Shown here one piece after another: positions 1,138 to 17,682 of a stretch of DNA of 23,713 nt. The notes below the pieces were generated by a model. It was not told the DNA's origin. It saw only the letters and a list, made by a program, of their open reading frames with translations, and ran no database searches. Both the position numbers and the translations under genes were made by a program. Each line of letters starts with the position of its first letter. Position 1 is the first letter of the stretch. The stretch is from positions 1 to 23,713 of the forward strand of contig JAEZYO010000585.1 in NCBI GenBank assembly GCA_023419055.1, given 5' to 3'. The DNA is from Pseudomonadota bacterium (lineage in GTDB: Bacteria > Myxococcota > Polyangia > Polyangiales > Polyangiaceae).

Positions 1138-2001
1138 TCATCGCCCCAGAAATTCCACGTCGTCGATCCACACGTCGAACGGGCTGTCCTCGGGGCGCAC
1201 CAAGAACTGCAAGCTGTGGAGCCTCGTCGGGTCGAGCTCCGGCCGACCGTAGCCGCGCTGCTGGAGCTCGCTCCAGGTCACGTCGAAGCGCTGCCACTTG
1301 TCGCTCAGCACGACCAGCTTGACGTGCGAGTTGAAGCAGTCCGTCTTGCAGGCGCCGTGGAGATCTTCGGGCACCACCGAGACCTCGCGCGCCGACACGT
1401 ACACTCGGCCCGGTCCCTTCGCGCGGAAGCCGAGTCCACGGTAGGCGCTCGCGTCATAGCAGTACGTCGGGAACGAGTACTCGAGTGAGCTCCCCCACTC
1501 TCGAAACTCGGGCCCTGTCCAATGCATGGCGAAGCCGTTCCCCGACTTCGACGGCTCGATCGTGAAAGGCCCGGGCCCTTTCTCGTTGCGGTCCGTCACG
1601 AGCTGCCAGAAGCCGGACCGACCGTCCCGCTTGGAGACCGCGCCGTTTCCGTCCTCGAAATCGTCGATCAAGGGCGCATGCCCCGACCCCCGCTGACGCG
1701 CGAGGCAGACCCTCGGCGCCGGGGCGACCGGAGCGCTCGCGCTCGGAGCGGCCACGCTGGGGCGAAGGGGCTCCGGGGTCGCGACCTCGACGCCGCGGCT
1801 CCGGTAAAGCATGAAGCTCGCCGCCACGAGGAGCGCCGAGATCCCTGCGGCGACACGCAGCGGAGTCACGAGACCGCGACGCTGCGCCCTCGGCTCCTCG
1901 TCGAGCCGCTTCTTGATCCGCTCCTCGAGCCCGCTCGGGGGCTGCTCGATCCGAGACGCTCGCAAAAGCTCGGCCCGCAGCGCTTCGAGTTCGTCGTTCA
2001 C
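1138..2001 (-). CDS. Membrane anti-sigma-like protein with carbohydrate-binding-like outer domain
   Basis: 287 residues in three parts. Residues 1-45 are a charged cytoplasmic region (likely the sigma-binding part), residues 47-66 one transmembrane helix, and residues 70-97 a Pro/Ala/Ser-rich stalk. Residues 108-287 form an exported beta-sandwich. That domain opens with LIDDFEDGNG and closes with TWSELQQRGYG...LDP..LHSLQFLV....FDVWIDDVEF, the strand pattern of CBM11/CIA30-like galactose-binding modules. Four Cys (181, 218, 222 and possibly 99) could form disulfides outside. There is no HxxxCxxC zinc anti-sigma motif, so the anti-sigma role is inferred from position. Its GTG start (1999-2001) overlaps the TGA of the ECF sigma gene by 4 bp (GTGA), which indicates translational coupling. 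The likely role is to hold the sigma factor at the membrane until the outer domain senses a polysaccharide or wall ligand. Confidence 0.82.
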   Translation of the reverse strand: MNDELEALRAELLRASRIEQPPSGLEERIKKRLDEEPRAQRRGLVTPLRVAAGISALLVAASFMLYRSRGVEVATPEPLRPSVAAPSASAPVAPAPRVCLARQRGSGHAPLIDDFEDGNGAVSKRDGRSGFWQLVTDRNEKGPGPFTIEPSKSGNGFAMHWTGPEFREWGSSLEYSFPTYCYDASAYRGLGFRAKGPGRVYVSAREVSVVPEDLHGACKTDCFNSHVKLVVLSDKWQRFDVTWSELQQRGYGRPELDPTRLHSLQFLVRPEDSPFDVWIDDVEFLGR

Positions 2002-2513
2002 CTTGCACCTCGGCGCGCTGCCAGACGTTTGAGAGTAGCGTCGAACTCCGAACGCGCGGTGCGCAGGCGCGACGCCACGGTGCCAGTCGGGATCTCGAGA
2101 GCGGCCGCGACTTCCGGCGCGGTAAGACCTTCGAGCTCCACCAGCACGAAAACGGCTCTTTGAGGCTCCGGCAAGCGCTCCAAGAAGGCGTCCAGGTCGG
2201 CTCGCGCGCGGCGAAGCTCCGCGATTTCGTCGGGAGCCTCACCGCCGGGCAGCGCCGAGGACAGCTCTTCGTGCGGAGGACGGCGTCGATAGCGCTTCCT
2301 CCTATCGGAGGCCATGCGCACCGCCGTGCCGATCAGGAACGACCGCTCGGAGCTCAGGGGGACGTGATCGAGACGGCGAGAGAGCACCAGAAAGACCTCT
2401 TGAGCGAGCTCGTCGGCGTCCGCGGCGTCGACGCCTGCCCGGCGGAGAACCCTCCAAACGACGGGTAAGTGGAGGCGAAGCGCTGCTGTCAGCCGATCTT
2501 CAGCGCGGGGCAT
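1998..2513 (-). CDS. ECF-type RNA polymerase sigma factor (sigma-70 family)
   Basis: A 171-residue protein with the two ECF domains. Sigma region 2 spans about residues 10-75 and contains DADELAQEVFLVLSRRL and the basic stretch DRRKRYRRR. Sigma region 4 spans about 105-165, with LPEPQRAVFVLVELEGLTAPEVAAALEIPTGTVASRLRTAR as its helix-turn-helix. The reading frame stays open for another 1.4 kb upstream, but only as the antisense of the GH5 gene. The ATG at 2511-2513 gives a normal ECF length. The gene is divergent from the GH5 cellulase (162 bp between starts) and overlaps the anti-sigma-like gene downstream by 4 bp. The pair is therefore a classic sigma/anti-sigma operon, probably autoregulated from the shared intergenic region. 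Confidence 0.92.
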   Translation of the reverse strand: MPRAEDRLTAALRLHLPVVWRVLRRAGVDAADADELAQEVFLVLSRRLDHVPLSSERSFLIGTAVRMASDRRKRYRRRPPHEELSSALPGGEAPDEIAELRRARADLDAFLERLPEPQRAVFVLVELEGLTAPEVAAALEIPTGTVASRLRTARSEFDATLKRLAARRGAR

Positions 2514-2675
2514 GGGCACGAGAACGAGGGTCCGGCTGCTTTGAACGCCTGGCCGAACATCCTGGACGCGCACCATACCCCATGGATGGCGCTCATGACC
2601 GCGACCGATCGCTCGAAAGAAGCCGGCGGGTTCTTTTCCCGATCGATGACCGCACCTCTTACCATCGACCACGAA

Positions 2676-4370
2676 ATGAAAAGCTCGCTCCGGTCCGGCG
2701 CCCTGGTCGGTTCGCTCTGGCTCGCTGCCTGCGGCGGAACCACGAGCCCGCAGAGCCCAGATCGCGTCGGCTCGTCGGGAGAGGGCTTCATTCGTCGATC
2801 GGGGACCTCCCTCGTCGACGAGAAGGGCGCCACCGTGCTTTTGCGCGGGGTCGCTTTCGGCAACAACGTTTGGAGCAACCCGTCCGCTCCGAACCCGAAT
2901 CACCACGCGGAGCGCGACTTCGAGCGCATCGCGAGCTGGGGCATGAACGCGGTCCGCTTCTGCCTCAACTACCGCCTCTTCGAGGACGACGAGACACCCT
3001 ACGAGTACAAGCAGTCCGGCTGGGACTGGGTCGATCAGAACGTGGCGTGGGCGAAGGCGCACGGCGTTCGCCTGATTCTGAACCTGCACGTACCCCAGGG
3101 TGGATTTCAGTCGAACGGCGAAGGCAGCGCGCTCTGGTCGAACGCCGAGAACCAGAACCGCTTCGTCGCGCTGTGGCGTGCCATCGCGGAGCGCTACGCC
3201 GATGAACCCACCGTCGCCGGCTACGACCTGCTCAACGAGCCGCGCCCCACCACATCGCGCTCGCAGTGGCGCGAGCTCGCGACACGGGCGACCAGCGCCG
3301 TTCGAGAGGTGGACGAGCGGCACCTCATCTTCGTCGAGCGCACGAACTCCGTCGGCGACGACTGGGGTAACGACTCGGAGATGAACTTCTTCCTCGTGCC
3401 CGACGACAACGTCGTCTACGAGTTCCACTTCTACGAGCCGTTCGAATACACGCACCAGTTCGCGAGCTGGGTCATGCGCGGGGAAGGCGGAAAGTACCCG
3501 GACGAAAGCCTGATTTCGAGCGCCGGGCTCGGCTTTTACCTCTGGAGCTACGAGCCTGCTCCGCCCCCGTACCTCGTCGCGGGCGACTCGGACTGGATGC
3601 TCTACGAGAGCCAGCCGTACAAGATCGTCGATCCGAAGATCAAAGCCATCGGGGTGACGTTGATGTCGGAGCTCAACTCCGGCACCGCATGGTTCGACGA
3701 CGTCACGGTGAAGGAGTACGACGAGGCCGGCAAGCTCGTCGGGACCATCTACGAGTCCGATCTCGAGAACCTCGACGGCTGGTACTTCTGGAAAGCCGGG
3801 AGCTCCGGCAGCGCCGCCGTCAGCAGCGAGGCGCACAGCGGAGCCGCGTCGCTCTCGATCTCGGGCACCGATCACGACGCGAGCCTCTCCGGCACCTGGC
3901 GCTTCGTGCCCAAGCCCGGGCACTCTTACAGCGTGAGCGTCTGGATGAAGGGGAAAGGCGTGGGCAAGGAGTCACGCCCCGACCCGCGCGGCTCCTGGAC
4001 GCAGGTCACGCGGGCGCTCGCGCGTCTCGACTATTTCACGGCGCAGGGCAGCGTCCTTTCCCGTAACAAGGGGTCGCTCGAGGCGTCGCTCGGCGCCTAC
4101 GCCGCCTGGGGAAAGAAGCACGATGTGCCGCTCTATCTCGGCGAATTCGGCTTGATGCACCAGTGCTTCGAGAACGAGCGCGGTGGCTCGGCGTGGGTCT
4201 CGGACGTGCTCGATATCACACGAGACCTCGGGCTGAACTTTACGTATCACACCTACCACGAGGTCAATTTCGGCATCTTCCTGAGCGAGGCGTCCACGAC
4301 CTTGCCGGAGGAGAGCGCCATGAATCGCGACCTGGTCTCGATCTTCGAGCGCAAGCTCCTCGCACAGTAA
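2676..4370 (+). CDS. GH5-family cellulase lipoprotein with an inserted jelly-roll-like domain
   Basis: 564 residues from ATG 2676. The N-terminus is a lipoprotein signal with lipobox L-A-A-C (Cys19) followed by a Ser/Gly/Pro linker, so the enzyme is probably tethered to the outer membrane. GH5 barrel landmarks are GMNAVRFCLNYRLF, then YDLLNEP with acid/base Glu188, then EFHFYEPFEYTHQ with His251, then YLGEFG with nucleophile Glu490. Ordinary GH5 domains are near 300 residues. Here about 170 residues (276-446) separate the His/Tyr strand from the nucleophile strand. That insert contains WFDDVTV, LDGWYFW, AHSGAASLSI and YSVSVWMKGKG, typical strands of CBM4/9-like jelly rolls. The expected activity is endo-beta-1,4-glucanase or a related glucanase/mannanase. 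The frame is open back to 2469, but the signal peptide fixes the likely start. No strong ribosome site is visible. Confidence 0.9.
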   Translation: MKSSLRSGALVGSLWLAACGGTTSPQSPDRVGSSGEGFIRRSGTSLVDEKGATVLLRGVAFGNNVWSNPSAPNPNHHAERDFERIASWGMNAVRFCLNYRLFEDDETPYEYKQSGWDWVDQNVAWAKAHGVRLILNLHVPQGGFQSNGEGSALWSNAENQNRFVALWRAIAERYADEPTVAGYDLLNEPRPTTSRSQWRELATRATSAVREVDERHLIFVERTNSVGDDWGNDSEMNFFLVPDDNVVYEFHFYEPFEYTHQFASWVMRGEGGKYPDESLISSAGLGFYLWSYEPAPPPYLVAGDSDWMLYESQPYKIVDPKIKAIGVTLMSELNSGTAWFDDVTVKEYDEAGKLVGTIYESDLENLDGWYFWKAGSSGSAAVSSEAHSGAASLSISGTDHDASLSGTWRFVPKPGHSYSVSVWMKGKGVGKESRPDPRGSWTQVTRALARLDYFTAQGSVLSRNKGSLEASLGAYAAWGKKHDVPLYLGEFGLMHQCFENERGGSAWVSDVLDITRDLGLNFTYHTYHEVNFGIFLSEASTTLPEESAMNRDLVSIFERKLLAQ

Positions 4371-4519: not shown

Positions 4520-5080
4520 ATGAAGCTTCACGGAATCTTGCTCGGCATGTTCGTTGGGATCTTGGGAACCGTCGCCTGCGGTGACGACGGCGACGATGAC
4601 GACGGCGGTGGGTCGGGCGGCTCTGCGGGCTCCACCGGCGGCACCTCCAGCAGCGGCGGCAAGGGCGGCTCGTCCTCGACGGGCGGTAAAGGCGGTTCGT
4701 CCTCGACGGGCGGCTCTGCAGGCTCGAGCGGCGGCACCTCCAGCAGCGGCGGCACCTCCAGCGGCGGAAGCGGCGGAACCGACCTTTGTGATCCCACGAT
4801 GGGCATGGGTCCGGACAGCACCTGTCAGGAAGAGATCGACTGTTTCGAGGCCGAATGCGGCAGCGAGGCTGACGAGTGCTTCGGTGCGGGTTGGTCGGAA
4901 GGCGATTTGAGTGGAGGCGCCTGTGGCTCGCTCTTCAGTTGCGTGAACGATTGCGACTGCGACGACTTCGAGTGCGCGCTGGGCTGTTTCGGAACCGCCG
5001 ACGAGGCCTGTGCTACCTGCCTCGCGACGTTGGAACCTTGCTCGACGGCTTGCGAGGACGCAGGCGCGTCCTGCGAGTAA
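4520..5080 (+). CDS. Cys-rich lipoprotein with Gly/Ser repeat linker
   Basis: 186 residues from ATG 4520, with a good ribosome site GGAGA ending 6 nt upstream. A hydrophobic signal ends in GTVAC with Cys20 as the lipid-attachment candidate (Thr at -3 is unusual). An acidic stretch (GDDGDDDD) and a roughly 60-residue Gly/Ser/Thr linker follow. The C-terminal part of about 100 residues holds 16 Cys, including CVNDCDCDDFECALGCF and CATCL, an even number that suggests disulfide bonding outside the cytoplasm. Lipoproteins of this plan are common in Polyangia genomes and their function is unknown to me. It lies 149 bp after the GH5 gene on the same strand, so it could be co-transcribed if the hairpin between them is leaky. 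It may be a surface or cell-contact protein. Confidence 0.85.
   Translation: MKLHGILLGMFVGILGTVACGDDGDDDDGGGSGGSAGSTGGTSSSGGKGGSSSTGGKGGSSSTGGSAGSSGGTSSSGGTSSGGSGGTDLCDPTMGMGPDSTCQEEIDCFEAECGSEADECFGAGWSEGDLSGGACGSLFSCVNDCDCDDFECALGCFGTADEACATCLATLEPCSTACEDAGASCE
4658..4711 (+). repeat. Two 27-bp tandem units inside the lipoprotein linker
   Basis: Units 4658-4684 and 4685-4711 differ at 3 of 27 positions, all third codon positions, so both encode GKGGSSSTG. The surrounding linker DNA (about 4612-4780) repeats related GGC/AGC blocks. Such in-frame repeats can change copy number and so linker length. Confidence 0.75.
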
Positions 5081-16404: not shown

Positions 16405-17682
16405 TCAGAGCGGGGGGTTAGCGTTCTTCACGAGGTCGAGGAAGTAGCTCTGGAACCACTGGCCCGCCTCGGGCGCGTCCGGCGCCGCGTCCGCGGACTT
16501 GCAGTTCTCGTCGAAGCGCTTCGCCGAAGGATCGGAGGTCCCGTCGGACTCACCGGGCGGCTTGCCCCACACGTACGCATCGAGGAGCGGCTTCGGGTTC
16601 GCGCGCGGGCGCTCGCCGATACCGGCGCCCTTCACGTTGCACCAGTTGCCCCACTTGGTACGGATGCCGTCCCTGCCGTTGCGTGACGTGTCGATCAAGA
16701 AGCCCTTGCCCTTGATCCCGACGGCCTCGAGGCTCTGCGCGAGCTTCTCCACGTAGGTGTGCTCGTTCGGGGCGGGGTTGCTCGCCTCGAGCTTCTTGTT
16801 CGCCTCGCCGTCGAGCGACGTGTAGTTCGAGACGTTGGTCGCAAAACCGCGGATGCGATCGATGCCGCCAGCCTGCGTCAGCACTTCTTTGTAGATGTTG
16901 GCGATCTTGGTGCGGTTGCCGTCCCAGCCGAGCCAGCCGGCGTGCGCCGCGTCGAGGTAGACCCAGACGTTCGGCAGCGAGAGCTGCGCGATCGCGTACG
17001 CCACCGAGTTTCGGTACACGTCCTGCGACTCCGCGCACTTCGGCACGTTCAGGTTCGTGGCGAGGTTGGGCAGCGAGTCGGGCTCGAGGATGACGACGAT
17101 GCGCTGGTTCTTGTGCGCCTTGATCTGCTCGGCGATCTTGTCGATGAACTCGGTGCGGTAGCGCTTCTCGCCGTCGTTCTCGAGCGTGAGCTCGCCGGCC
17201 GACGACTTGGCCGAACAATCGCGGTTCGGGAGATTGTAGATGAGGAGGATCGGCACGACGGGCTTACCCGCCGCCTTCTCCTGCTTCTCCGCGTCCTCGA
17301 GCCAGCGCGGCAGGTGCTGCAGCGCGCCGATCGACTCGAGCCAGAGCGCCGTCGGCTGCTTCAACAGCTTCTTGATCTGCGGGGCCTGAGCCGGCGCCGC
17401 CGCGATAGCGCCTTCGATGCGCTTCGTGTAGTCCGGGTTGACGAAGAACTGCGCGCCGTCGAACGGGTTCTTGGTCGTGGCAGCGTGCGGCGAGGTGGCG
17501 GCGGTCACCGGCATGGCCGGCTTGGCCTTCGGCATTTCCTCCTCTTCCGGCGCCGCCCAGGAGCCCTGCTTGGCAGCGGGGGCCTCTTGCGTCGTCGCGT
17601 CAGAAGCAGGCTGCGACGAGCCACCGCACGCCGTCGCCAGGAACAAAGAGAGAGAAAACTTGAACCAACGCTGAGCAACCAT
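16405..17682 (-). CDS. GH6-family cellulase lipoprotein (endoglucanase/cellobiohydrolase)
   Basis: 425 residues. Signal with lipobox L-A-T-A-C (Cys19), then a Pro/Ala/Glu-rich linker to about residue 70, then a complete GH6 catalytic domain. Landmarks: YNLPNRDCSAKSSAGEL (Asp155), VVILEPDSLPN with proton-donor Asp202 (the GH6 signature), VYLDAAHAGWLGW, FATNVSNY, FLIDTSRNG, WCNVKGAGIGERP, and LDAYVWGKPPGESDG. GH6 enzymes are inverting beta-1,4-glucanases. The domain size fits an endoglucanase, but the loops that decide endo versus exo action cannot be judged by eye. ATG 17680-17682 has AGGAG 9 nt upstream. It would be anchored at the envelope like the GH5 enzyme. A LacI-type palindrome at 17742-17757 lies upstream. 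Confidence 0.95.
   Translation of the reverse strand: MVAQRWFKFSLSLFLATACGGSSQPASDATTQEAPAAKQGSWAAPEEEEMPKAKPAMPVTAATSPHAATTKNPFDGAQFFVNPDYTKRIEGAIAAAPAQAPQIKKLLKQPTALWLESIGALQHLPRWLEDAEKQEKAAGKPVVPILLIYNLPNRDCSAKSSAGELTLENDGEKRYRTEFIDKIAEQIKAHKNQRIVVILEPDSLPNLATNLNVPKCAESQDVYRNSVAYAIAQLSLPNVWVYLDAAHAGWLGWDGNRTKIANIYKEVLTQAGGIDRIRGFATNVSNYTSLDGEANKKLEASNPAPNEHTYVEKLAQSLEAVGIKGKGFLIDTSRNGRDGIRTKWGNWCNVKGAGIGERPRANPKPLLDAYVWGKPPGESDGTSDPSAKRFDENCKSADAAPDAPEAGQWFQSYFLDLVKNANPPL

Follow-up and report, generated by a model that had tools for sequence, protein, structure and literature searches.

A putative glycan-sensing anti-sigma factor paired with an extracytoplasmic function sigma factor beside a GH5 cellulase gene in a member of the Polyangiaceae

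We have analysed a stretch of DNA of 23,713 nt (hereafter the window; contig JAEZYO010000585.1, positions 1 to 23,713, forward strand, assembly GCA_023419055.1) from an organism listed as Pseudomonadota bacterium, with the GTDB lineage Bacteria; Myxococcota; Polyangia; Polyangiales; Polyangiaceae, a family that includes cellulose-degrading myxobacteria. Our principal conclusion, to which we assign a probability of about two in three, is that a membrane-anchored protein of 287 amino acids encoded on the reverse strand (1138–2001, GTG start) is a glycan-sensing anti-sigma factor for the extracytoplasmic function (ECF) sigma factor encoded by the overlapping gene (1998–2513, reverse strand), controlling nearby polysaccharide-degradation genes that include a divergent glycoside hydrolase family 5 (GH5) cellulase gene (2676–4370, forward strand). 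Because relatives of this pair adjoin other polysaccharide enzymes, the sensor is probably one of a family of myxobacterial glycan sensors.

The coordinates and gene layout in a preliminary description of this DNA, for sensor, sigma factor and GH5 enzyme alike, were all recovered by analysis of the open reading frames (ORFs). The sigma ORF, which ends at 1998, shares 4 bp (GTGA) with the sensor ORF, and the sigma gene is separated from the divergent GH5 lipoprotein gene by 162 bp (2514–2675), counting the start of the latter at 2676; both the overlap and the spacing had been described correctly. The most likely sigma start is the ATG at 2513, an in-frame ATG at 2576 being a possible alternative. 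The sigma protein (171–172 amino acids) gives matches above cut-off to Sigma70_r2 and Sigma70_r4_2 in Pfam and to sigma70-ECF in NCBIfam, and with regions 2 and 4 only, and the size of a group IV factor, it has the make-up of an ECF sigma factor. Most of its relatives in the PDB bear the name of an ECF or RpoE-type sigma factor.

Searches with the sensor returned 182 homologues at E up to 1e-3, and 282 with a profile at E up to 1e-5, from which two alignments were made, one of 39 of the 120 homologues listed (182 found) and one of 114 of 166 relatives; 151 of the 166 were full length, and 133 of these 151 lay above a simple membrane-span threshold. The architecture of the sensor was delineated from its ORF, AlphaFold2 models, fold matches and these alignments. 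The strongest hydrophobic segment ahead of the outer domain comprises residues 48–66 by hydropathy, and a membrane helix is predicted at about 48–68 (coding region 1798–1860, reverse strand, as for the other parts of this gene). It follows a head of 47 residues (1861–2001) and is succeeded by a Pro/Ala/Ser stalk at about 70–98 and a predicted beta-sandwich with the fold of a carbohydrate-binding module (CBM) at about 105–287 (1141–1689; the range aligned by structure search was 105/106–287). Positively charged residues precede the span, from which we infer that the head lies in the cytoplasm and the outer domain in the periplasm.

The models place the helices of the head at residues 3–18 and 25–35, and the two-helix pattern is conserved across the family alignment, with L12, A15, R17, L25 and R28 among the conserved head residues. 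According to passages of PMC7406223, a class I anti-sigma domain (ASDI) has four helices, a three-helix bundle plus helix 4, and in passages of PMC4598750 the cytoplasmic domain of CnrY is described as two helices that embrace an ECF sigma factor and are enough for inhibition. With only two predicted helices before the membrane helix at 48, the sensor head departs from the four-helix N-terminal domain of class I and is therefore class II-like (CnrY/NepR type) in size, two helices alone being no proof of class. The head gave no match above any family cut-off in Pfam or NCBIfam, the nearest being a sub-threshold NCBIfam anti-sigma match over the head and adjoining part (residues 5–90; 20.1 bits, E 5.1e-4, cut-off 100). 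It has no cysteine/zinc motif, and the zinc anti-sigma (ZAS) motif HxxxCxxC was found in 0 of the 151 full-length relatives, in agreement with the absence of such a motif in the preliminary description. Outside the membrane, Glu77, about ten residues beyond the helix, is 94% conserved in the 114 aligned relatives amid an otherwise variable Pro/Ala/Ser stalk and is a possible cleavage or recognition point. With about 30 residues, the stalk is probably too short to span an outer membrane, so that the sensor is expected to encounter fragments of glycan in solution or a partner in the periplasm; in a Gram-negative cell these would be likelier signals than cellulose itself.

The outer domain had been described as CBM11/CIA30-like, and this stands for the fold and only in part for the sequence. 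In structure searches with both AlphaFold2 models, the best match was CtCBM11 of Lic26A-Cel5E, with the CIA30 fold score tied with that of CBM11, and the models show the beta-sandwich that characterizes the CBM11 fold. The sequence evidence is slighter: CIA30 (PF08547) reached 20.7 bits in the sensor against a gathering cut-off of 24, being matched in 19 of the 39 aligned relatives at E up to 0.1 (best 2e-6), whereas CBM_11 (PF03425) was matched neither in the sensor at E up to 1 nor in the 39 relatives at E up to 0.1. Alignment of the outer domain with CBM11 was insignificant; the outer domain differs from CtCBM11 in having 18% identity to it, no PF03425 match and, by eye, a Tyr53 position that is not kept. 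Sequence searches of the PDB gave a best sensor match of E 0.15 and, for the sensor profile, no match. The likeness to CBM11/CIA30 exceeds chance: invariant in the 114 sequences are DDFE, W132, W169-G170, C-Y-D at 181–183 and four cysteines (C99, C181, C218 and C222), whose invariance would fit disulphides outside the cytoplasm.

Among the matches listed (120 per search), every one that names an organism is from Polyangiaceae or Myxococcales, and P0118, P0141 and P0129 bear automated CBM11, CIA30 or carbohydrate-binding names, most others being ‘hypothetical’ or unnamed; no relative was found in viral, plasmid and phage collections. One listed homologue, P0082, is a 40% identical paralogue of the sensor, possibly a second copy near the window gene though not encoded in the window, and P0003/P0068 are likewise possibly two copies close together in one genome. 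In surveys limited to the 12 to 21 top candidates of each genome, sensor matches at E up to 1e-50 occurred in 8 of 108 genomes of one family and, at E up to 1e-30, in 17 of 183 genomes of its order and 15 of 192 of its class, 20 of the 21 places listed at class level covering only the outer part of the profile. The pair itself is conserved: a sigma gene lies directly upstream on the same strand for 13 of 90 distinct outer domains checked, a count that includes a few genes twice through truncated copies (such as L008/L033 and L011/L058). As an adjacent sigma gene is what makes a locus a pair here, a count of 13 of 13 would be circular and 13 of 90 is the fair figure. The 13 loci are the window; L001–L008, L011 and L017, which are the ten pairs among 25 loci; and L074 and L075 (the G006 and G074 loci), which came from a genome search. 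A hydrophobic segment lies 29–78 residues before the outer domain in all 13 pair sensors, and most of the other 77 outer-domain proteins begin, as judged by eye, in the manner of a lipoprotein, a secreted protein or an enzyme fusion. Region 4 scored above the Pfam cut-off in all ten sigma proteins scanned from the pair loci and region 2 in nine; at L005 and L007 the identity of the sigma factor rests on similarity. Downstream of some further ECF sigma relatives in these genomes (L162, L169, L172, L176) lie genes for membrane proteins that have short heads and, by eye, different C-termini resembling tetratricopeptide repeats, as if the outer part of such membrane proteins were exchangeable.

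The genes beside the pairs recurrently encode polysaccharide enzymes, a pattern that the preliminary description had suggested looking for. Besides GH5 in the window, the flanks include a divergent GH12 gene (L074), GH8 (L002), GH13 (L006 and L007), a divergent carbohydrate esterase of family CE2 (L075) and co-directional CBM30-CBM11 proteins (L004 and L005, the latter with a GH51-like C-terminus), whereas the immediate flanks of L001 and L003 encode neither a polysaccharide enzyme nor an outer-domain protein. At three loci the divergent neighbour itself bears an outer domain, namely an esterase (Esterase_PHB) at L011, an amidohydrolase at L017 and a lipoprotein at L008. Across the 13 loci, glycoside hydrolase (GH), carbohydrate esterase (CE) or CBM genes, the only classes counted, so that the L011 esterase is left out, made up 8 of 25 immediate flanks (the anti-sigma-side flank of L017 being off the contig) against 0 of 20 control genes, each taken from a different site elsewhere in those genomes. 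The one-sided Fisher P was 0.005, or 0.012 with two orthologous couples merged and 0.027 with GH13 also left out. Among the controls one glycosyltransferase (GT2) was not counted and five had no Pfam match; the E limit of the scans was 0.001 for flanks (1 for the two of the window) and 1e-5 for controls, and all eight counted flank matches lie below 1e-5. In the genomes of ten relatives, with adjacency judged by eye, 2 of 4 Pfam CBM11 matches lay beside a pair (0.004 expected), as did 1 of 68 GH8 matches (0.06 expected) and 0 of 87 GH5 matches (0.08 expected). The idea of GH5 as the fixed partner of the pair is therefore unsupported: the enzyme partner differs between loci, and GH5 is not the conserved one. 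Beside two pairs (L008, 959–3408, and L006, 2346–6221), outer-domain lipoproteins are clustered with DUF1592/DUF1588/DUF1587 (PSD) proteins.

The same domain family is also found in cellulases. Ten long outer-domain ORFs were scanned, revealing GH9 in one (L096), GH8 in two (L102, L103), an esterase in two (L095, L099) and leucine-rich repeats (LRRs) in two (L094, L097), with CIA30 only, or no family, in the remaining three (L098, L100, L101). The outer-domain protein of L077 has a lytic transglycolase domain, and outer-domain lipoproteins adjoin GH5 genes at two places. A FastTree phylogeny built from 37 outer domains places all 13 of the anti-sigma copies together on one branch (support 0.865), consistent with a single recruitment followed by change of partner enzyme. 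That the sensor domain arose as a copy of the one in the divergent enzyme beside it is unsupported, as the anti-sigma domains cluster apart from the enzyme-borne ones.

Our current working model is that the two-helix head of the 287-residue protein would tether the ECF sigma factor to the inner membrane in an inactive state, and that the periplasmic CBM11-like domain would bind a fragment of a plant glycan, or else a partner in the periplasm to which such a fragment is bound. This would release the sigma factor, through conformational change or proteolysis near the membrane, and the freed sigma factor would transcribe the operon to which it belongs together with polysaccharide-degradation genes close by, in this case the divergent GH5 cellulase gene. 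The polysaccharide-responsive switch envisaged in the preliminary description is favoured by the CBM fold, by fusion of the domain to GH9 and GH8 and by the recurrence of enzymes beside the pairs; against it in its original form, GH5 is not the conserved partner and cellulose itself is the less likely signal.

It is important that other explanations of these data are considered. The outer domain might be a CIA30-like protein-interaction domain through which the pair senses an envelope protein or damage, its enzyme neighbours merely reflecting genomes rich in carbohydrate-active enzymes. CIA30 is indeed the best Pfam hint, albeit sub-threshold, its fold score equals that of CBM11, fusions of the domain to LRR proteins and to an amidohydrolase occur as well, and single genomes hold up to 16 GH5 and 11 GH8 matches. 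Against it stand the difference between flanks and controls, the placing of CBM11 beside pairs, though L004 and L005 look orthologous, and the fusion of the domain to GH9 and GH8; we consider this explanation unlikely.

Less probable still is an indirect sensor that binds no glycan; it would instead dock a protein encoded at the same locus, either a lipoprotein or an enzyme (for example an outer-domain or GH5 lipoprotein), and report the occupancy or secretion of that protein. Many neighbours are lipoprotein-like by eye, and divergent outer-domain proteins do lie directly beside the pair at L008, L011 and L017, but the other ten loci have no outer-domain protein as a direct neighbour, and at those three the sensor and neighbour domains are not mutual closest relatives in the tree. 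It is most improbable of all that the membrane protein is no inhibitor and instead activates or stabilizes the sigma factor, or that the sigma factor is constitutive. This would suit a head that is smaller than a class I anti-sigma domain requires and that matches no family above cut-off, yet the sigma gene is directly upstream of the sensor gene at 13 loci, and a two-helix head is sufficient in CnrY (passages of PMC4598750).

The GH5 assignment rests on PF00150 (E 7.9e-38), with CelC of Clostridium thermocellum as the closest solved structure (1.7e-32). A lipoprotein-type start (MKSSLRSGALVGSLWLAAC, by eye) lies at 2676, the mechanical ORF (2469–4370) beginning at an earlier GTG at 2469. The LLNE motif aligns with CelC, and GEFG is aligned only within a second segment of 3.7 bits; a CBM_4_9 match (25.0 bits against a cut-off of 25.9) covers residues 426–497 of the 633-residue ORF, and the catalytic domain appears to be split by this CBM4/9-like insert, located before GEFG and between the two GH5 motifs. 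Both divergent promoters are expected to lie in 2514–2675, a region without a sigma-70-type promoter-like match. Motif searches upstream of 11 sigma genes gave best real scores of 98.5 at width 12 (shuffles: mean 96.1, maximum 99.8) and 125.7 at width 20 (shuffles: mean 121.4, maximum 125.9), with 12 shuffled sets per width and 12 restarts for the real set against 6 per shuffle. Because the real scores do not exceed the shuffle maxima, TTCGATC, which recurs near −84 to −118 in some loci, was dropped and is not claimed as a motif. Elsewhere in the window are a second cellulase gene, of family GH6 (16405–17682, reverse strand; PF01341, 6.5e-107), lipoprotein-like by eye and 12 kb from the GH5 gene, and, downstream of the latter (4520–5080, forward strand), a gene for a small lipoprotein-like protein, Gly/Ser-rich then cysteine-rich, with no Pfam match.

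SigI is not known as a true member of the ECF group, and sigma24C is of ECF type. Parts of two papers describe SigI/RsgI of C. thermocellum as sensing carbohydrates through a membrane anti-sigma factor, with glycoside hydrolase genes as targets (PMC3990059; PMC10766802), and the relevant part of the review groups SigI with ECF systems (PMC10766802). The parallel with SigI/RsgI drawn in the preliminary description holds in logic, a membrane anti-sigma factor with an outer carbohydrate-binding domain beside its own sigma gene, known here from genes and predictions, but not as homology, no RsgI N-terminal family appearing among the sensor's Pfam or NCBIfam matches at E up to 1; furthermore, the clostridial system works at a Gram-positive cell surface, whereas here we have a two-helix head, a CBM11/CIA30-like domain and a presumed Gram-negative cell. 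Alongside SigI/RsgI, passages of PMC3990059 describe the sugar-sensing pair sigma24C/Rsi24C, in which Rsi24C has a GH5-like module in place of the CBM-like domain found here, and which belongs to another phylum. ECF52 (SCO4117) of Streptomyces joins an ECF sigma factor to a membrane span, a proline-rich region and a carbohydrate-binding domain (passages of PMC8999054), and GH or carbohydrate-binding domains are predicted in ECF52/53 members (passages of PMC10766802); these are fused sigma/anti-sigma proteins with a zinc finger, in contrast to the two overlapping genes without a zinc motif described here. CnrH/CnrY shares the two-helix cytoplasmic domain, the head being likened to it by helix count, and CnrH (4cxf) is among the PDB relatives of the window sigma factor, but CnrY acts with the metal sensor CnrX. 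To our knowledge that system has no carbohydrate domain. Control of cellulase or glycan genes by ECF sigma/anti-sigma systems is noted for C. thermocellum, Cytophaga hutchinsonii and Bacteroides in part of PMC10766802, and the portions of the open-licence literature that we searched yielded no myxobacterial or CIA30-type case and no dedicated Polyangiaceae polysaccharide sensor. Sugar-sensing ECF/anti-sigma control is therefore already known as a kind, and what looks new is the variant with a CBM11/CIA30-like domain and a two-helix head.

We also put forward a wider proposal, tentatively and at a little short of even odds: that the Polyangiales hold a family of ECF/anti-sigma pairs whose sensors derive from one recruitment of an undescribed CBM-like family, also used as a cellulase accessory module, each pair reading a different periplasmic plant glycan and controlling its own linked enzyme. 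If true, this would be the equivalent, in Gram-negative cells, of the array of RsgI sensors in clostridia, with a minimal anti-sigma head of two helices as its base. The mapped sensors and their predicted partner enzymes make glycan sensing in Polyangiaceae directly testable, and the family supplies CBM-like domains to assay and candidate sugar-responsive ECF switches for engineering.

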